Positions 1,304-62,910 of a stretch of DNA of 64,000 bases are shown here, one piece after another. A program made the position numbers and the translations under genes. The DNA comes from Mesorhizobium sp. ORS 3324 (GTDB lineage Bacteria > Pseudomonadota > Alphaproteobacteria > Rhizobiales > Rhizobiaceae): NCBI GenBank assembly GCA_000824825.2, contig LM655192.1, forward strand, positions 37,946-101,945, read 5' to 3'. Each line of letters opens with the position of its first letter. Positions within the stretch are counted from its first letter, which is position 1. Below the pieces are notes generated by a model. It ran no database searches. It had not been told where the DNA came from and was given only the letters and a program-made list of their open reading frames with translations.

Positions 1304-3363
1304 AGCAGTAGACGAAGCGCCTCGCCGCGCTCGGACTGCAGTTCGGGATCGCGCGACAGGATCAGCCTGGCATCGTCGCGGGCGGCTTCGAGCAGATCGG
1401 CATGGAACTCGATGCGCGCGACCTGGAAGCCGGGCGTGCCGGACTGGCGCGTGCCCAGCAGCTCGCCTTCGCCGCGCAGCTTCAAATCCTCCTCGGCGAT
1501 GCGGAAGCCGTCCTCCGTCTCGCGCATCACCGACAGCCGGCGCTTCGCGGTCTCGCCGAGCGGATCCTTGTAGAGCAGAACGCAGGAGGAGGGCCGGTCG
1601 CCGCGCCCCACCCGGCCGCGCAACTGGTGCAACTGGGCAAGGCCAAAGCGCTCGGCATGCTCGATGACCATGATGGTCGCGTCCGGCACATCGACGCCGA
1701 CCTCGATGACAGTGGTGGCGATCAGGATGCGCGTCTCGCCCTCTTTGAAGGCGCGCATCGCCTCATCCTTCTCGGCACCCTTCATGCGGCCGTGAACGAG
1801 GCCGATCTGGTCGCCGAACAGCGGCTTCAGCGAAGCGAAACGGTCCTCGGCCGACATCAGCTTGATCTCTTCCGACTCCTCGACCAGCGGGCAGATCCAA
1901 TAAATCTTCTGGCCTTCGGCGACGGCATCGCGCATGCGTCCGACCAGTTCGTCCAGACGTTCCATCGGCAAGGTGACGGTGCGGATCGGCTGGCGGCCGG
2001 CTGGTTTCTCGGTGAGCTTGGAGACATCCATGTCGCCGAAGGCGGTGAGCACCAGCGTGCGCGGGATGGGTGTCGCCGTCATCACCAGCATGTCGGGCGC
2101 GTCGCCTTTGGCGGTGATGGCGAGGCGCTGGTGGACGCCGAAGCGGTGCTGCTCGTCGACGACGGCAAGAACCAGGTCGTGGAAGGTGACCGTTTCCTGG
2201 AAGAGCGCATGGGTGCCGACGACGATGTCGATCGCGCCGCTGGCAAGGCCTTCCAGCGTCTCCGCGCGTTCGCGGCCCTTTTCGCGCCCGGTCAGGATGG
2301 CGACACGCAGGCCGGCTTTTTCCGCCAGCGGGGCGATCGTCGCCAGATGCTGGCGCGCCAGGATCTCGGTCGGCGCCATCAGCGCCGCCTGGCCTCCTGC
2401 CTCGACCGCGCGGCCCATGGCAAGCAGCGCGACCACCGTCTTGCCGGAGCCGACATCGCCCTGCAGCAGGCGCAGCATGCGTTCCGGATCGGCAAGGTCG
2501 GCATTGATTTCGCCGAGCGCGAATTCCTGTGGCGGTGTGAGCTTATAGGGCAAGGCTGCACGCAGCCGCCCGACGATACGGCCGTCGCCGGTGAGCGGCC
2601 GGCCGGAAAGGCGGCGGATTTTGGCCCGCACCAGCGCCAGCGACACCTGGCCGGCCAGGAATTCGTCGTAAGCCAGGCGGCGCCAGGCCGATCCTTCGAC
2701 CGCGACATCGATCGGGTCTTTCGGATCGTGGATGCGGGCGAGCGCGTCGCCGAAGGATGGAAAGGTGTGACGGCGCATGAAAGCGTCGTCCTGCCATTCC
2801 GGCAGGTCCGGCAAGCGGCCGCGTGCCTGGGCGATCGCCCGGCGCAGCACCTTGGCCGACAGGCCGGCGGTCAGCGGGTAGACCGGCTCGACCAGCGGCA
2901 GTCCCTCGGCCTCGTCGAGCGGTGCGATATGGTCGGGATGAACCATTGTCGGGCGGCCGTTGAACCACTCCATGCGGCCTGAGATCACGACACGCTCACC
3001 TTCCGGCAGCATCTTCTGCAGATAGGCGGCATGGGCATGGAAGAAGGTCAGCGCGATCTCGCCCGTGTCGTCATGGGCGTAGACCCGGTAAGGGACCGAC
3101 CTGTTGCCGCGCGGCGGCGGCTGGTGGCGGTCGACGCGCACCTCGAGGGTGACGATCTGGCCTTCGGCCGAGAGCGCGATGCCCGGCCGGCTGCGGCGGT
3201 CGATCACCGTGTTGGGCAGCACGAGCAGAAGGTCGGCGGCGCGCGCGGCCCGGTCGCCGAGATCGGCCGGCACAACCCGCTCAATCATGGTCCCGACCTT
3301 CTGGCCGACGCCGGCGAGAGAGGTGATCGGGACGAACAGGGGATCGAGGATGGAAGGACGCAT
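1255..3363 (-). CDS. recG: ATP-dependent DNA helicase RecG
   Basis: 702 aa, normal length. RecG remodels stalled replication forks and branch-migrates Holliday junctions. It has an N-terminal wedge/OB-fold domain (about 60-150), Walker A GDVGSGKT at 302-309, a DEQH box at 403-406, and a C-terminal helicase domain with QLRGRVGRGDRPS. It shares the helicase core with the neighbouring mfd. The start MRPSILDPLF is typical of rhizobial RecG. It is divergent from sdhE, the conserved Rhizobiales arrangement. Confidence 0.97.
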   Translation of the reverse strand: MRPSILDPLFVPITSLAGVGQKVGTMIERVVPADLGDRAARAADLLLVLPNTVIDRRSRPGIALSAEGQIVTLEVRVDRHQPPPRGNRSVPYRVYAHDDTGEIALTFFHAHAAYLQKMLPEGERVVISGRMEWFNGRPTMVHPDHIAPLDEAEGLPLVEPVYPLTAGLSAKVLRRAIAQARGRLPDLPEWQDDAFMRRHTFPSFGDALARIHDPKDPIDVAVEGSAWRRLAYDEFLAGQVSLALVRAKIRRLSGRPLTGDGRIVGRLRAALPYKLTPPQEFALGEINADLADPERMLRLLQGDVGSGKTVVALLAMGRAVEAGGQAALMAPTEILARQHLATIAPLAEKAGLRVAILTGREKGRERAETLEGLASGAIDIVVGTHALFQETVTFHDLVLAVVDEQHRFGVHQRLAITAKGDAPDMLVMTATPIPRTLVLTAFGDMDVSKLTEKPAGRQPIRTVTLPMERLDELVGRMRDAVAEGQKIYWICPLVEESEEIKLMSAEDRFASLKPLFGDQIGLVHGRMKGAEKDEAMRAFKEGETRILIATTVIEVGVDVPDATIMVIEHAERFGLAQLHQLRGRVGRGDRPSSCVLLYKDPLGETAKRRLSVMRETEDGFRIAEEDLKLRGEGELLGTRQSGTPGFQVARIEFHADLLEAARDDARLILSRDPELQSERGEALRLLLYLFGRDEAVRLLRAG

Positions 3364-3456
3364 CGTGTCAGCTTATGTCGCGACGGCGGCAGCGCAAAGG
3401 CTGACACCGGTCTCTATCCACGCTATATGCGCCGCTTCGAACAGGGATGGCGTGCG

Positions 3457-3744
3457 ATGACCGGAACACAGCGATCAAGCGAGGGATTGGACGCCCGGCG
3501 CCGCAAGCTCCTGTTCCGCTCCTGGCATCGCGGTATGCGCGAGATGGATCTGATCCTCGGTTCCTTCGCCGATGCCGAGATCGGCGCCTTGACCGGCAAC
3601 GAAATCGACCAATATGAAATGCTCCTCGAAATCCCCGACACCGAATTCCTGCCGATGATCACCGGCGAACGCCCGGTTCCGCCCGATGTCGATTGCGCGG
3701 TGCTGCGGAAGATCCTGGCGTCGCGTCGGACCATGACATTTTGA
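3457..3744 (+). CDS. sdhE: succinate dehydrogenase assembly factor SdhE (DUF339)
   Basis: 95 aa. SdhE promotes covalent attachment of FAD to the succinate dehydrogenase flavoprotein. The hallmark RGMRE sequence (residues 25-29, general RGxxE) is present, followed by the helical bundle ending in a conserved acidic/aromatic stretch (YEMLLEIPD). An in-frame ATG at 3427 would add ten residues; I prefer 3457 because homologues begin close to the helix. It lies between recG and mfd as in most Rhizobiales. Confidence 0.9.
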   Translation: MTGTQRSSEGLDARRRKLLFRSWHRGMREMDLILGSFADAEIGALTGNEIDQYEMLLEIPDTEFLPMITGERPVPPDVDCAVLRKILASRRTMTF

Positions 3745-3758
3745 AAAACGCATAACCC

Positions 3759-7256
<3,498 letters not shown>

Positions 7257-7395
7257 CGGCTTCGCCGCAAGCGTCCTAACCGGCATAAGCCATTCGCCAC
7301 TGCTGAAATTCCTGTCTAGAATAGGAAATCGGCTTCGTGTAAGGAGCCGCCACCTCATATTGGGGCCGAAATGGCGAGCGAGGGCGTTCGCCGGT

Positions 7396-7450
7396 TTGTT
7401 TGACGCAATTCCGGACGGAAAACCGTTTCGCATTTTTCCTGGAATTGCTC
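7396..7450. repeat. dispersed palindromic repeat, family A copy 1
   Basis: GCAATTCC (7405-7412) and GGAATTGC (7441-7448) are inverted arms separated by 28 bases; inside them a GGAAAA / TTTTCC pair extends the fold. The same unit occurs at 14391, 40336, 51573 and 56261. This copy lies just before the DAHP synthase start. Confidence 0.85.
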
Positions 7451-7473
7451 TGAAAGGGCGTTTGGGTGCAGCG

Positions 7474-8847
7474 ATGACGAAATGGTCGCCGAATTCGTGG
7501 AGAGCAAAGCCGATCAAGCAGGTCCCGGCCTATCCGGATCTTGCGGCACTGCAGGCCACGGAGGCGCGGCTCGCCACCTATCCGCCGCTGGTCTTTGCGG
7601 GGGAGGCGCGCAAGCTCAAGAAGCAACTGGCAGCGGTCGCTGCCGGCGAAGCCTTCCTGCTTCAGGGAGGCGACTGTGCCGAGAGCTTCGCCGAACACGG
7701 CGCGGACAACATCCGCGACTTCTTCCGCGTCTTCCTGCAGATGTCGGTGGTGCTTACCTTCGCCGGCGCGCAGCCGGTGGTGAAGGTCGGCCGGGTCGCC
7801 GGCCAGTTCGCCAAGCCGCGCTCCTCCGACAGCGAAACCAAGGCCGGCGTGACGCTGCCTAGCTATCGCGGCGACATCATCAATGGCATCGAGTTCGACG
7901 CCAAGTCCCGCGTCCCCGATCCGGCCAGGCAGGAGATGGCCTATCGCCAGTCGGCGGCGACGCTCAATCTTCTGCGCGCCTTCGCGCAGGGCGGCTATGC
8001 CAGCCTCGAAAACGTGCATCGCTGGATGCTCGGCTTCGTTGCCGACAGCCCGCAGGGCGAGAAATACGAATCGCTCGCAAACCGCATCACCGAGACCATG
8101 GATTTCATGCGCGCGGTGGGCATCACCTCCGAGACCAATTTCGCGCTGCGCGAGACCGATTTCTACACCAGCCACGAGGCGCTGCTGCTCGGCTATGAGG
8201 AGGCGCTGACCCGCGTCGACTCGACCTCGGGCGACTGGTACGCGACATCGGGCCATATGATCTGGATTGGCGACCGCACCCGCCAGCCCGACCATGCGCA
8301 TGTCGAATATTGCCGCGGCATCGAGAACCCGCTCGGCCTGAAATGCGGACCGTCGCTGACACCGGACGGCCTGCTGGAGCTTATCGATCTGCTCAACCCC
8401 GAGAACGAGCCGGGCCGGCTGACGCTGATCGCGCGCTTCGGCTCCGACAAGGTCGCGGAGCATCTGCCGAAGCTGGTGCGGGCGGTGAAGAAGGAAGGCC
8501 GCAATGTGGTGTGGTCGTCCGACCCGATGCACGGCAACACGATCGAGGCGGCCGGCTACAAGACGCGGCCGTTCGACCGCATCCTCAAGGAAGTGCAGAC
8601 CTTCTTCGAGGTGCACCGCGCCGAGGGCACGCATCCGGGCGGCATCCACGTCGAGATGACCGGCAAGAACGTCACCGAATGCACCGGCGGCGCGCGCGCC
8701 ATCACGGCGGAAGACCTGCAGGATCGCTACCACACCCATTGCGATCCACGCCTCAACGCCGACCAGGCGATCGAGCTGGCCTTCCTGGTCTCGGACCTGT
8801 TGAAGAAGAGCCATCCGGTCCAGCACAAACAGGCCGCCAACGCCTGA
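7474..8847 (+). CDS. aroG: class II 3-deoxy-7-phosphoheptulonate synthase
   Basis: 457 aa. It catalyses the first step of the shikimate pathway, condensing phosphoenolpyruvate and erythrose-4-phosphate. The plant/actinobacterial class II type is shown by N-terminal [16 protein letters not shown] with the metal-ligand cysteine, the conserved [11 protein letters not shown] block and the C-terminal HGNT metal/substrate motif. I start at ATG 7474; longer frames read through repeat copy A1. A terminator follows at 8876. The symbol follows class II usage; other annotators may call it aroF or aroH. Confidence 0.93.
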
Positions 8848-8875
8848 ACGGCCTGCCATCCCCTGTGATCGATCA

Positions 8876-8901
8876 AGCGCCGAATTTCTCCGGCGCTTTT
8901 T
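8876..8901 (+). terminator. rho-independent terminator after DAHP synthase
   Basis: AGCGCCG (8876-8882) pairs with CGGCGCT (8891-8897) across an 8-base loop and is followed by a T run, 28 bp after the stop codon. Confidence 0.8.
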
Positions 8902-9002
8902 CGTTCGGGAACCGGGTGCGCGCGGTGTCGTCCGCAAAACCTTACGAAAATTTATGGTTATGCGACCATCGCAAGACCAAGATTGAGGTGGAGGTGTCGC
9001 CC

Positions 9003-9020
9003 CGCGGCTGAGAAGCCGCG
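9003..9020 (+). promoter_or_regulatory. stem-loop in the 5' leader of the 9041 gene
   Basis: CGCGGCT-GAGA-AGCCGCG is a perfect 7-bp stem with a GNRA tetraloop (GAGA), ending 20 bp before the start codon. It could stabilise the leader or limit ribosome loading. There is no homology to a known riboswitch that I recognise. Confidence 0.4.
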
Positions 9021-9040
9021 CATACGGCACAGGTTCCACC

Positions 9041-9745
9041 ATGCGTCACGAGCATGCCATTGTCCACCATCGCGCAATCGACTTCTGGTCGGCGCGCGCG
9101 GCGGTGCTTGTCGTCATCTGCCTGCAGCTTCTCGTCATAAACGACCTTTCGTTCGGGCCGCGCTGGCTCGCGCCCGCTATCGAGGCGGCGCTGCTGGTGC
9201 CTTTGTCGATCGCAACGGCCTGGACGCAGATGGCGACCCAGAAGGCCGTCGACCACGAACATTGGTACGCGATCGGCCGGTTTCGCGTCTTCATCCGCCG
9301 CACCGCGCTGGTGATGACCGGCGTCATCAGCATCATGAATTGCGGGTCGCTGATCTTGCTGGTCCGGGCACTGCTCGAAGGCCATGCCGGCGCCGGCACG
9401 ACGCTGCTGGTCGATGCGCTCAACATCTGGGTCACCAACGTCATCGTCTTCGCGCTGTGGTTCTGGAGCACCGACCGCGGCGGCCCGCCGACCTGCGGCC
9501 TGGTCAAGCGCGCGCATGCCGATTTTCTCTTCCCGCAGATGACGCTGCCCGATCGTGAGATACGCGACTGGCTGCCCGGCTTTGTCGATTACGTCTTCCT
9601 GGCCTTCACCAACGCGACGGCGTTCTCGCCGACCGACACCTTGCCGCTCACCCAGCGCGCCAAGCTTTTGATGATGGCCGAGGCGATGATCTCGTTGCTG
9701 ACGATCGCGCTGGTGGCCGCGCGCGCCGTGAACATACTGGCTTAG
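9041..9745 (+). CDS. integral membrane protein of unknown function
   Basis: 234 aa, mostly hydrophobic, with about five membrane spans (near residues 20-40, 48-66, 88-112, 122-140 and 205-230). The end (FTNATAFSPTDTLPLTQRAK followed by a long helix) is laid out like the pore-plus-last-helix region of two-helix ion channels, but no GYG selectivity filter is present. I do not recognise a specific family. The last 4 bp overlap the stop of the convergent RES toxin gene. Confidence 0.75.
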   Translation: MRHEHAIVHHRAIDFWSARAAVLVVICLQLLVINDLSFGPRWLAPAIEAALLVPLSIATAWTQMATQKAVDHEHWYAIGRFRVFIRRTALVMTGVISIMNCGSLILLVRALLEGHAGAGTTLLVDALNIWVTNVIVFALWFWSTDRGGPPTCGLVKRAHADFLFPQMTLPDREIRDWLPGFVDYVFLAFTNATAFSPTDTLPLTQRAKLLMMAEAMISLLTIALVAARAVNILA

Positions 9746-59443: not shown

Positions 59444-59896
59444 ATGCTCAAAGGGATCAATCCGCTGCTCAATGCCGATGTGCTCCAGGCGCTGCGGGCC
59501 ATGGGCCACGGCGACGACCTGATCATCGCCGACACCAATTTCCCGTCCGACTCCGTCGCCAAGCGGACCGTGCTCGGCAAGTTGCTGCGCATCGATGCGC
59601 CGGCAGCCGAAGTGGTGAAGGCGGTGCTGTCGCTCTATCCGCTGGACAGCTTCGTCAACGACGCGGCCGCGCGCATGGAGATCGTGGGCAAGCCGAACGA
59701 GATCCCGCCCGTGCAGAAGGAGGTGCAGAAGGAGATCGACGCGGCCGAGGGCAAGTCCTGGCCGATGATCTCGGTCGAGCGCTACGCCTTCTACGAGCGC
59801 GCCAAGAAGGCCTATTGCGTCATCCAGACCGGGGAGCGCCGCTTCTATGGCTGCTTCGCCTTCCGCAAGGGCGTCATTCCACCGGATGCGGAGTAA
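59444..59896 (+). CDS. fucU: FucU/RbsD-family sugar mutarotase
   Basis: 150 aa. MLKGINPLLNADVLQALRAMGHGDDLIIADTNFP with the His/Asp pair, and ERYAFYERAKKAYCVIQTGE carry FucU signatures, nearer FucU than RbsD. It interconverts sugar anomers. It lies between the ATPase and the kinase in one operon. Confidence 0.87.
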   Translation: MLKGINPLLNADVLQALRAMGHGDDLIIADTNFPSDSVAKRTVLGKLLRIDAPAAEVVKAVLSLYPLDSFVNDAAARMEIVGKPNEIPPVQKEVQKEIDAAEGKSWPMISVERYAFYERAKKAYCVIQTGERRFYGCFAFRKGVIPPDAE

Positions 59897-59900
59897 GACG

Positions 59901-60830
59901 ATGGCCGCCGGCAAGCCTGTCGTCATCCTCGGTGTGTTCGTCGCCGATACTGCCTATCGCGCGAACCGCCAGCCGCGCATGGGCGAGACGATCCTCGGCA
60001 ATTCGTTCAAGCTCGGACCGGGCGGCAAGGGGTCGAACCAGGCGGTCGCGGCCGGCAAGCTCGGCGCCGACATCACCTTCCTGACGAGGCTCGGCGTCGA
60101 TGCCTTCGCCGACATGGCCAAGCAGACGTGGAACGGTGCGGGCGTGAAAAGCGCGGTCATCGACACGCCGGACAGCTACACGGGCGCGGCCTACATCTTC
60201 GTCGAGGAAGGCACCGGCAACAACGCCATCATCGTCAGCCCGGGCGCGGCGATGTTGATCTCGCCCGCCGATATCGAGGCGCATGCCGATCTGATCCGGT
60301 CGGCCGGCGTCTTCGTCACCCAGCTCGAGCAGCCGATCGCAGCGGCGCTGAAGGCGCTGGAGATCGCGCGCGGGGCAGGGGTGACGACCATCCTCAACCC
60401 GGCGCCGGCCGCCACTCTCCCGGACAGCATCTACGCGCTCTGCGACTACGTCACCCCCAACGAGTCCGAAGCCGAGGGGCTGACCGGCATCACCGTCTCT
60501 TCGGTCGACGATGCCCGTCGCGCCGCCGACGCGCTGCTGGCGAAGGGCGTCGGCGCCGTCATCGTGACGCTCGGCGAGAAGGGCGCGCTCTTGCACACCA
60601 AGGACCGTTCCGACCATGTCGATGCCGTCAACGCCGGCCCGGTGGTAGAAACCACAGGAGCTGGTGACGCCTTCAATGGCGGCTTGGCGGCAGCACTTGC
60701 CAAGGGCGTCGAGCCTTTGGAGGCGGTTCGCTTTGCCTGCGCGGTCGCCGGTATTTCGGTGACGCGCCCCGGAACCGCGCCCTCCATGCCGACGCTCCAG
60801 GAAGTCGAGGCGCTGCTGGCGAGGGCTTGA
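59901..60830 (+). CDS. rbsK: PfkB-family sugar kinase, ribokinase-like
   Basis: 309 aa. Substrate site GPGGKGSNQAVAAGKLGA and C-terminal TTGAGDAFNGGLAAAL with the catalytic Asp match ribokinase. The N-terminus VVILGVFVADTAYRANRQPRMGET is a rhizobial variant. Symbol is by homology; the sugar is unproven, and FucU and the aldose dehydrogenase point to deoxyhexose or pentose. Confidence 0.87.
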   Translation: MAAGKPVVILGVFVADTAYRANRQPRMGETILGNSFKLGPGGKGSNQAVAAGKLGADITFLTRLGVDAFADMAKQTWNGAGVKSAVIDTPDSYTGAAYIFVEEGTGNNAIIVSPGAAMLISPADIEAHADLIRSAGVFVTQLEQPIAAALKALEIARGAGVTTILNPAPAATLPDSIYALCDYVTPNESEAEGLTGITVSSVDDARRAADALLAKGVGAVIVTLGEKGALLHTKDRSDHVDAVNAGPVVETTGAGDAFNGGLAAALAKGVEPLEAVRFACAVAGISVTRPGTAPSMPTLQEVEALLARA

Positions 60831-60941
60831 GACTCCTCGCTGCACTTACAACTTGGAGGTTTCACCGTTCGGAACGCAAACCGTGCGAACGCGTTCACTG
60901 TGCTGACCGAGACGAGGCTGCGCCGGTTCCGGAACGGTGAG

Positions 60942-61040
60942 ATGAAAAAGCCTTATGAAAAGCCCACGCTGGTGAAGCGCCAGAAGCTCACTGCACGAAC
61001 CGCACAGATTGTCGCGTCGGGCGTGATATTGGGCGAATGA
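60942..61040 (+). CDS. putative RiPP precursor with lasso-type leader (YxxPxL)
   Basis: 32 aa, MKKPYEKPTL ... ILGE. Y5-x-x-P8-x-L10 matches the leader motif recognised by RiPP recognition elements in lasso peptide systems. K-L near 15-16 and Thr20-Ala21 match the end of the known rhizobial 'putative RiPP precursor' leader. The core after Ala21 would be QIVASGVILGE. A weak GGAACGGTGAG stands before the ATG. No cyclase or leader peptidase is in the window. Confidence 0.65.
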   Translation: MKKPYEKPTLVKRQKLTARTAQIVASGVILGE

Positions 61041-61554: not shown

Positions 61555-62910
61555 CTAGAGAGCCGGCCCCAACCGAATGGCGCTTCCGTCATAAAAGCGC
61601 GACAGGCGAAAGCGGGTGAGATCGTGCCCGACTTCGTTCCCCAGGATCAGGTCGGAGACGACCCGGCCGATTCCCGGTCCGATGCCGAAGCCGTGGCCGC
61701 TCATGCCCGTTGCGACGGTCAGGCCGCTGATCGCCTGCACGCGATCCACCACGGGGACCACGTCCGGCATTGCGTCAATCATGCCGGCCCAGCTTGCCTT
61801 TATGCGGACCGAACCGAGCTGCGGGAAAAGGCGCTTGAAATTGCGTTCGATCGAACGGAGGCCGGAGCGTTCGGCGGCCGGATTGAGCACCCGCATCCTT
61901 TCGAAGGGACTTTGGGAATCCGGCGCCCAGTGACGCGGCGTCGACCAGCCATCCGGATAGCCCGCCGGCGCGGCCGGCGAATAGCGCGACCCGAAAGGGT
62001 TGGCCATGAGCGCGCGAAGGTATTTCGTCGCGTGCCGGAATGCGTCGGGTCCCAGGTGGAGCAAATGGCTGCCTCCCGGGGCGAGCGTGTATCCGCCATC
62101 CTGTCTGCGCCTGAAAGCGATACGCTCTCCTGAGGCGGCACCTGCATGGATTTCAGGCATCGGCTCCGTTGCCGCGGCGGTCGATCTGACGCTGAGCTGG
62201 GGAATGGAAACTCCATGTCTCCTGAGGAAGAGGGAAGACCACGCGCCGCCGGCCAGAAGCACGCTGGAAGTCTCGATGTGACCCGCCTCGGTCCATACGC
62301 CACTGACCCTGCCGGCCGAGATCTCGAGGGTTCGCGCCGCGCAGTTCTCGATGATCTTGACGCCCTTGCGGGCTGCAAGCCGAGCGAGTGCGGGCACGGC
62401 CACCCAAGGCTCGGCCCGCATGTCGGAAGGCGTCGTCATTGCGCCCTTGAAGCTGCGCGACATGCCTTTGATGAGCCCCGCGGTTTCCTGTGCGTTCAGA
62501 AGGCGGGTGTCGATCTTGTGGGCGGCGGCGATCTTCATGAACTTGTCGAAGCCGGCCATTTCGCGGTCCGAGCTTGCCAGGTAAGTCACACCTGTCTGCT
62601 TCAGGCCGATGTCCTCGCCGCATTCCTCGGCCAGCTGCCGCCAGTGGCGGGATGCCTCGATCACGATCGGCAACTCATCCGCATCGCGGCCCTGCTTGCG
62701 GATCCATCCCCAATTGCGGGAGGACTGTTCGGCCGCAATCCGTCCCTTTTCAACCAGCGTCACGGAGATGTTCCGCCGCGCAAGAAAAAGCGCCGTCGTC
62801 ACGCCGATTATGCCGCCGCCGATAATCACCACGTCAGATCTTTTCGGTGGAGGACCGGGATATTGAATTGGGTCAGCTTCGGAGAACGGGAAATTGCGCA
62901 AAGGGTGCAT
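61555..62910 (-). CDS. FAD-dependent oxidoreductase (DAO family)
   Basis: 451 aa. Dinucleotide-binding VVIIGGGIIGVTTALFLARRNISVTLVEK at about 27-55, then a D-amino-acid-oxidase-like fold ending with GMSGHGFGIGPGIGRVVSDLILG. The run SSRNWGWIRKQGRDADELP is typical of amine/amino-acid oxidising members. Substrate unknown. Confidence 0.9.
   Translation of the reverse strand: MHPLRNFPFSEADPIQYPGPPPKRSDVVIIGGGIIGVTTALFLARRNISVTLVEKGRIAAEQSSRNWGWIRKQGRDADELPIVIEASRHWRQLAEECGEDIGLKQTGVTYLASSDREMAGFDKFMKIAAAHKIDTRLLNAQETAGLIKGMSRSFKGAMTTPSDMRAEPWVAVPALARLAARKGVKIIENCAARTLEISAGRVSGVWTEAGHIETSSVLLAGGAWSSLFLRRHGVSIPQLSVRSTAAATEPMPEIHAGAASGERIAFRRRQDGGYTLAPGGSHLLHLGPDAFRHATKYLRALMANPFGSRYSPAAPAGYPDGWSTPRHWAPDSQSPFERMRVLNPAAERSGLRSIERNFKRLFPQLGSVRIKASWAGMIDAMPDVVPVVDRVQAISGLTVATGMSGHGFGIGPGIGRVVSDLILGNEVGHDLTRFRLSRFYDGSAIRLGPAL

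Follow-up and report, generated by a model that had tools for sequence, protein, structure and literature searches.

The closest described systems to the one reported here are the Linear Polyphosphorylated Peptides (LPP) of Bacillota and the phosphorylated lasso peptides. LPP clusters, as described by Popov et al. 2026 (PMC13381572), combine a discrete RRE, an HprK-like kinase and an NTP transferase with precursors that have a conserved YxxP leader and a variable core, and no macrolactam cyclase is described for them. In that account, residues N33 and D70 of the RRE protein LppB hold the Pro and Tyr of the leader, whose full motif is YxxPxVLxHQxIxFETxxS; phosphorylation of core Ser is demonstrated; the cluster encodes one to three precursors of 35–200 aa, a SpI/SipW-like peptidase (LppS) and an MsbA-like transporter; the same genomes often carry a phosphorylated lasso cluster; and LPP clusters are also found near polysaccharide genes (PMC13381572). 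LPP are called restricted to Bacillota by the same authors.

The phosphorylated lasso peptides paeninodin, pseudomycoidin and Bradymonas Bsf are made, according to the reports cited here, by sets that include B2, an RRE and an HprK-like kinase, joined in pseudomycoidin and Bsf by a nucleotidyltransferase, and they have a cyclase C and a ring-forming Asp/Glu (PMC9266682; PMC10368454). A Ser of the lasso precursor is phosphorylated by the kinase, and leader position −2 is Thr, Ile or Val (PMC9266682; PMC10368454), residues on which lasso B2 enzymes are described to depend (PMC10368454). For pseudomycoidin, a nucleotidyltransferase-like protein is needed to add hexoses to the phosphorylated Ser (PMC9266682). 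Roles have also been described for a His, a Gly-Lys and an Asp-Asp of these kinases (PMC13381572; PMC10368454).

Here we describe a family of short peptides in Mesorhizobium and propose, with a probability of roughly 80%, that they are RiPP precursors whose genes are dispersed over the genome and which a single cyclase-free block of four genes (B1, B2, K and NT) turns, in trans, into linear phosphopeptides. The family was approached from one ORF in a stretch of 64,000 nucleotides of Mesorhizobium sp. ORS 3324, referred to as the window, which lies on contig C35 of a genome of 6.58 Mb in 79 contigs (G000). The initial annotation had described this ORF as a RiPP-like precursor with a lasso-type leader, and its reading of the letters is correct: the translation has Y-x-x-P-x-L (Y5, P8, L10) and the KL...RTA end of the leader, and in a core starting after Thr20-Ala21 the sole acidic residue is Glu11. 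No transporter lies downstream of the peptide, as had been claimed, on a reading of the ORFs rather than a family scan. The gene starts 111 bases after the end of its ribokinase-like neighbor (Table 1). Family libraries were tried as a source of a name and gave none: NCBIfam returned no match to the window peptide, including the lasso RiPP leader NF033521 (cut-off 19 bits), which one of three scanned paralogs exceeded with 22 bits, and Pfam returned DUF5972 only, below threshold.

Table 1. Features of the precursor gene and its surroundings, in window positions.
Feature	Position	Strand	Basis
Precursor peptide gene, MKKPYEKPTLVKRQKLTARTAQIVASGVILGE (32 aa) and stop	60942..61040	+	ORF translation, family matches, dN/dS
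Predicted leader, residues 1–21 (MKKPYEKPTLVKRQKLTARTA), with Thr-Ala end	60942..61004	+	Conserved block in the 45-row alignment A1; cleavage site predicted
Y5-x-x-P8-x-L10, RRE-binding motif	60954..60971	+	45 rows: Tyr and Pro invariant, Leu at least 90%
Predicted core QIVASGVILGE, residues 22–32	61005..61037	+	Boundary predicted
Ser26 codon (core Ser5), predicted phosphorylation site	61017..61019	+	Ser in 144/144 parsed cores; modification predicted
GGAACGG, presumed ribosome-binding stretch	60931..60937	+	Sequence reading; A/G-rich peak of the family
CTGACC, possible degenerate −35 element, at −39	60903..60908	+	TTGACC in ortholog L008; weak for the window copy
Ribokinase-like sugar kinase gene, upstream neighbor outside the system	59847..60830	+	ORF list; name presumed from protein appearance
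FAD-dependent oxidoreductase-like gene, convergent neighbor outside the system	61555..62910	−	ORF list; name presumed from protein appearance

Relatives of the peptide are numerous within the genus. A single-peptide search of 41 genomes found the family in 18 of 25 Mesorhizobium genomes, whereas all 16 genomes belonging to other families of the order were negative. The same 18 genomes were returned by the profile A1, with 5–14 copies each at E ≤ 0.1 and 149 in total; the members of the alignment came from genomes later searched with it, which raises these scores by construction. In a wider set of 81 genus genomes, 57 carry peptides, 3–20 copies each (A1, E ≤ 1e-5). The copies stand singly or in small tandem groups, in many gene contexts, and share the leader consensus MKKxYEKPxLxKRxKLSxVTA (in a more general form, MKKxYxKPxLxKRxKLSxVTA), followed by a variable core. 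Of the 18 genomes that have the family, 15 contain an ortholog of the window copy, with the core QI(V/I/F)xSG; a ribokinase gene lies within the 3-kb ortholog locus in 8 of 15 genomes and was not found there in the other 7. In the 105 pairwise comparisons among 15 orthologs similar in length, dN/dS is 0.10 for the leader and 0.13 for the core; one of these orthologs comes from a genome that is not among the 25, and a further ortholog, whose core is longer, was excluded. Both parts are under purifying selection. The search of related genomes and the alignment of leader and core that the initial annotation had called for thus bear it out: a lost motif or start codon, or a frameshift in close strains, was seen in none of the orthologs examined, and the ORF is confirmed as a genuine gene.

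The variable part of the peptides has one constant feature. The fetched loci contained 162 members, of which 9 were dropped (score below 30 or no start codon); the remaining 153 represent 151 distinct peptides, and after 5 unparsed peptides of one Kaistia array and 2 long ones were set aside, 144 could be divided into leader and core, a few of them from other genera. These cores are 5–24 aa long, and every one contains Ser, which stands at core position 5 in 64% and at positions 3–7 in 137, the other 7 cores having it elsewhere. Ser at positions 4–6 is found in 123 of the 144 cores, compared with a mean of 63 and a maximum of 83 in 2000 shuffles. The leader end is equally regular: position −1 is Ala in 141 of 144, and position −2 is Thr in 98, Val in 33, Ala in 11 and Ile in 2. 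As 131 of the 144 members have Thr or Val at that position, the leader end fits the requirement of lasso B2 enzymes. As a separate observation, 23 of the 144 cores, plus one long fusion outside this set, have two or more Cys, which by eye mostly flank the conserved Ser, for example in MACPISQCGD (L040 9497–10001, L041 8672–9204, L050); these two-Cys cores are possibly a disulfide subgroup.

Most copies lie far from the candidate enzymes. In five genomes assembled as single contigs, 36 of 37 copies (E ≤ 1e-5, a threshold that omits 2 of 9 copies in G003 and 2 of 14 in G009) are 0.69–3.66 Mb away from the kinase gene K, and one is 14 kb away. Among the neighbors of scattered paralogs in 20 loci and the window, the commonest gene cluster, presumably an OafA-type acyltransferase, recurs in 7 of 21 sources, and two others, which from the appearance of the proteins we take to be WD40- and Sel1-repeat-like, in 4 each. 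No recurring modification gene was found beside the paralogs in these 20 loci and the window, and for the scattered copies we therefore dismissed maturation in cis.

Candidate enzymes were located elsewhere in the genome. A Pfam search of G000 with Transglut_core3 gave two matches, both on contig C31, and the weaker one is the B2 of a block at G000:C31:137.9–140.7 kb (L035). It consists of the RRE protein B1, the lasso-type cysteine leader peptidase B2, the HprK-like kinase K and a convergent nucleotidyltransferase NT, and is adjoined by a peptide of the family, MKRTYEKPMLVKREKLSSVAAGGLSGPRGV. B1 matches PqqD (PF05402) with 45.4 bits (cut-off 23.4), B2 matches lasso_biosyn_B2 (NF033537) with 73.6 bits (cut-off 33), and NT matches PF14907 with 87.5 bits. 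The match of K to Hpr_kinase_C is below the cut-off, and an HprK-related kinase A system (TIGR04352, HPr-rel-A) was rejected for K, at 32.6 bits against a cut-off of 200. NCBI annotates K mostly as 'serine kinase'. The block genes occur in identical order in all 18 genomes of the first sample that have peptides, with a peptide beside them in 7 of 18 by motif and in an eighth, G015, by profile. The region between dhaK and prpE holds only NT-K-B2-B1, with a peptide in some genomes, and no SipW-like peptidase was found in it. The block includes no transporter, and in the 18 genus block loci (10–20 kb each) there was no match to a lasso cyclase.

Residues on which the activities would depend are strongly conserved in 102 loci, some of which represent the same genome twice. 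An Asn (N39) and an Asp (D76) of B1 are kept in all 102 and would be equivalent to N33 and D70 of LppB, as traced through an alignment with TfuB1. A Cys and a His of B2 are likewise present in 102/102, with an Asp aligning in 85; we presume that these are the functional residues. The His, Gly-Lys and Asp-Asp of K are kept in 102/102, and in 99 of them Ala replaces the first Gly of the BsfK motif. In one genome (G065), which still has 11 peptide copies, the K gene (C4:200852–201811) contains one internal TGA, which may be a sequencing error or a sign of recent decay.

Peptides and block occur in the same genomes. In the 81 genus genomes, K (E ≤ 1e-20) and peptides (E ≤ 1e-5) are found in an identical set of 57 (Fisher p = 4e-21, kinship ignored). 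The idea that this merely reflects a single clade was tested with a prpE tree of 78 genomes: presence of the block switches 6 times on it, with 4 or more of the switches on well-supported branches, but the pairs are too few for a sign test. Peptides go with K in 4 of 4 independent pairs, compared with an average of 1.7 of 4 for the lasso-cyclase ortholog; 4 pairs cannot reach p = 0.05, and kinship stays a caveat. The tree is a quick one from a single gene, with 30 of 75 inner branches starred; it leaves out G024, G058 and G059, and the prpE used for the K-negative G016 contains a stop. Inspection of 15 of the 24 K-negative genomes showed that NT, K, B2 and B1 are all missing beside prpE (15/15), and in 14 of the 15 dhaK and prpE, which flank the block elsewhere, are only 0.15–3.1 kb apart. 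The sugar locus of the window was matched in 16 of the 24 block-negative genomes, including these 15; the matches end at or before base 944 of 1141, near the end of the ribokinase gene, and in none of the 16 (in G090 the match is split over two contigs) do they reach the peptide.

The initial annotation had left the peptide between two alternatives, an orphan served in trans and a member of a family with a different maturation. The results support both at once. The block enzymes lie elsewhere in the same genome and co-occur perfectly with the family in 81 genomes, and the block has no cyclase. Its statement that neither a lasso-type cyclase nor a leader peptidase lies nearby extends to whole-genome scans (B2-like Pfam domain; lasso cyclase at E ≤ 1e-20), in which matches to both were confined to C31. 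The suggested search for RRE/B1, B2 and cyclase genes in the rest of the genome yielded the B1-B2 block and a complete lasso cluster, both on that contig.

Block and peptides also occur outside Mesorhizobium. Among 297 genomes of the order, A1 peptides were found in 9 and the kinase profile (E < 1e-50) in 13 that include these 9; only part of the first-look candidates was scored (at most 27 and 7 per genome), so that absences are weak. Full-length K with no A1 match was seen in G156, G237, G238 and G355; a loose scan found divergent YxxPxV peptides in cis in G156, and no convincing peptide within about 4 kb in the other three. A scan of named genomes gave 79 loci, mostly Mesorhizobium (M. ciceri WSM1271, L300, among them), with others in Kaistia, Devosia insulae, Oricola indica, Ancylobacter koreensis and several MAGs. 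Of these other-genus loci, 15 were inspected together with 4 further ones. B1, B2 and K are recognizable in 18 of the 19 (the exception is L310, a fragment at the end of a contig, with no B1 and only part of B2), NT is present in 18 and was not found in L298, and the only sign of a lasso cyclase in the 19 is a partial 27% match in L367. In 11 of the 19, a loose motif scan with selection by eye places peptides with YxxPx(L/I/V) leaders no more than a few kb from the block, for example in Kaistia, Devosia, Ancylobacter and Oricola, the last with five peptides. Beyond these 19 loci, such peptides are paired with the block in L153 and, by eye, probably so in L212. Read by eye, the cores from other genera carry Ser, except that in the MAG loci L319 and L348, where the leaders end in LQAVTA, mainly Thr stands in its place.

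From the family, the gene content, the co-occurrence and the conserved residues, we infer how the peptides may be processed. The invariant residues of B1, B2 and K, the leader end, the core Ser and the homology of the kinases together predict the following course. B1, as the RRE, would bind the YxxPxL leader; K would add at least one phosphate to the conserved core Ser (Ser26 in the window peptide); B2 would cut after Thr-Ala (after Ala21 in the window peptide); and NT may add a sugar or a nucleotide to the phosphate. The product would be a short linear phosphopeptide, QIVASGVILGE in the case of the window copy. For this core the calculated m/z of [M+H]+ is 1085.620, and each phosphate would add 79.966 Da (1165.586, 1245.553). 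A conserved core Ser together with a kinase points to phosphorylation.

This proposal has to be weighed against the complete lasso cluster of the same genome. The other Transglut_core3 match belongs to cluster L084 (G000:C31:166000–180000, 1943–9369), about 30 kb from the block, which comprises NT, the precursor MEQNVEKQEYETPSLTVHGSIETITQGASGTTALDAAFPAHTPIGDLTFS, B1, B2, a 640-aa cyclase, a kinase and an ABC transporter; apart from B2, which has a Pfam match, the genes are presumed to be such from the appearance of the proteins. Its precursor has a YxxPxL leader, a possible classical G1–D9 ring and, like paeninodin, a C-terminal Ser. The cluster resembles the block system in its leader, B1, B2, kinase and NT, and differs in having a cyclase, an ABC transporter, a precursor of its own and a different distribution. 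The window peptide could be an extra substrate of L084 and so become a lasso or other macrolactam: both leaders have YxxPxL, cyclase orthologs (E = 0) occur in 54 of the 57 peptide-bearing genomes, and RREs outside Bacillota can be promiscuous, as reported for FusB1 (PMC13381572). But L084 has a classical precursor already, and an acidic residue at core position 7–9 is found in only 12 of 144 cores, none of which has at least 13 residues and begins with G, A, C or S; with 0 of 144 cores fitting the lasso-ring rule and a block lacking cyclase, the doubt that had been expressed about a classical lasso fold is justified. Moreover, cyclase orthologs are present in 5 of 24 peptide-free genomes and missing in 3 of the 57 peptide-bearing ones (one of these three is 79% complete); the distribution of the peptides is thus closer to that of the block than to that of the cyclase. 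On these three grounds the peptide was rejected as a substrate of L084, a role that we regard as very improbable.

A different objection accepts the block and questions the chemistry. Its key step might be leader trimming alone, or a modification of Cys or of the C-terminus, instead of Ser phosphorylation. The Ser site is not fixed, whereas the target of LppK and BsfK is core residue 3; the cores with two or more Cys, and the fact that NT is part of the block that is lost, could be read in the same way. Against this stand the invariant catalytic motifs of K and the Ser found in every core, as well as the phosphorylation of core Ser by homologous kinases in the described systems (PMC13381572; PMC10368454), and such a chemistry is, in our judgment, rather unlikely. 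We give next to no credence to the view that the window ORF is not a RiPP gene at all, that is, a small basic regulatory peptide, an attenuator leader or a chance ORF near a ribokinase gene. It is small, with no modification gene nearby and no library match above threshold, but a dN/dS near 0.1, paralogs that keep the leader in many contexts, a distribution identical to that of the block and linkage to the block in other genera all argue otherwise.

In its proposed maturation the family most resembles LPP. It shares with LPP the discrete RRE with its Asn/Asp pair, the YxxP leader ahead of a variable core, an HprK-like kinase (family matches below cut-off) and an NTP transferase with no cyclase, and it too occurs in genomes with a lasso cluster. 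It differs in two defining features of LPP, since the peptidase is a lasso-type B2 instead of a SipW-like enzyme in the cluster and the leader has a different motif and end; in addition, no transporter belongs to the block, and the precursors are short and scattered at 3–20 per genome rather than encoded in the cluster. The core Ser, whose phosphorylation is demonstrated in LPP (PMC13381572), is conserved here and is the predicted site. With the phosphorylated lasso peptides it shares the B1 RRE and B2 peptidase (here in trans to the window peptide), the HprK-like kinase, the nucleotidyltransferase of pseudomycoidin and Bsf and the residues at −2, and it has neither a cyclase C with the set nor the Asp/Glu at core positions 7–9, the window peptide having Glu11 only (PMC9266682; PMC10368454). 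The Mesorhizobium family is therefore not a lasso peptide, its block having no cyclase and its cores no ring acid. Most likely, the system is an alphaproteobacterial form of cyclase-free, lasso-derived phosphopeptide RiPPs in which many precursors are served in trans. In prochlorosins, too, a single enzyme acts in trans on a large number of dispersed precursors, but by lanthipeptide synthetase chemistry and with an unrelated leader and unrelated enzymes.

If this is correct, linear phosphorylated RiPPs would extend from Bacillota to Alphaproteobacteria, with another peptidase, and the pairing of a phosphorylated lasso peptide with a linear phosphopeptide in one genome would be a parallel to Bacillota. 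Many tiny ORFs that have lacked an explanation, in a major genus of legume symbionts, would be linked to a concrete enzyme set, and this would be a natural system in which dispersed precursors in large number may depend on one such set. Because most of these precursors are far from the enzymes, often by megabases, genome mining that looks for clusters would miss them.

The upstream regions bear on how the scattered genes are expressed. Of 143 regions, 136 were retained as non-redundant; they show an A/G-rich peak at −7 to −13, and 75 of them contain TTGACA (6 contain its reverse complement), with 70 of the 78 occurrences starting 50–69 bases ahead of the start codon. This suggests that the element is a shared promoter, and that roughly every second scattered copy has one of its own, at a constant spacing from the gene. 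A weak −10-like stretch follows TTGACA in the family regions. The window copy has no TTGACA near −60. Tentatively, and with less than even probability, the system may be pictured as a dispersed phospho(glyco)peptide repertoire, in which a trans-acting, lasso-derived enzyme set with no cyclase serves many single-gene precursors on the chromosome and on plasmids, TTGACA standing at a fixed distance from about half of these genes. There being no dedicated exporter, the products might act intracellularly or between kin, as signals tied to the neighboring genes (e.g., sugar uptake), and the precursors would vanish with the loss of the block.

A literature search limited to titles and abstracts, with most subscription journals and preprints outside its scope, found no paper describing the Mesorhizobium family or connecting its parts. 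Two parts, one peptide copy and the kinase, are already partly named by NCBI annotation. A peptide copy on plasmid pMspAR02b of Mesorhizobium sp. AR02 (L391 4001–4093) lies about 2 kb from an IS66 transposase, a possible sign that single precursor genes are mobile, and one such plasmid copy is annotated by NCBI as 'putative RiPP precursor'.
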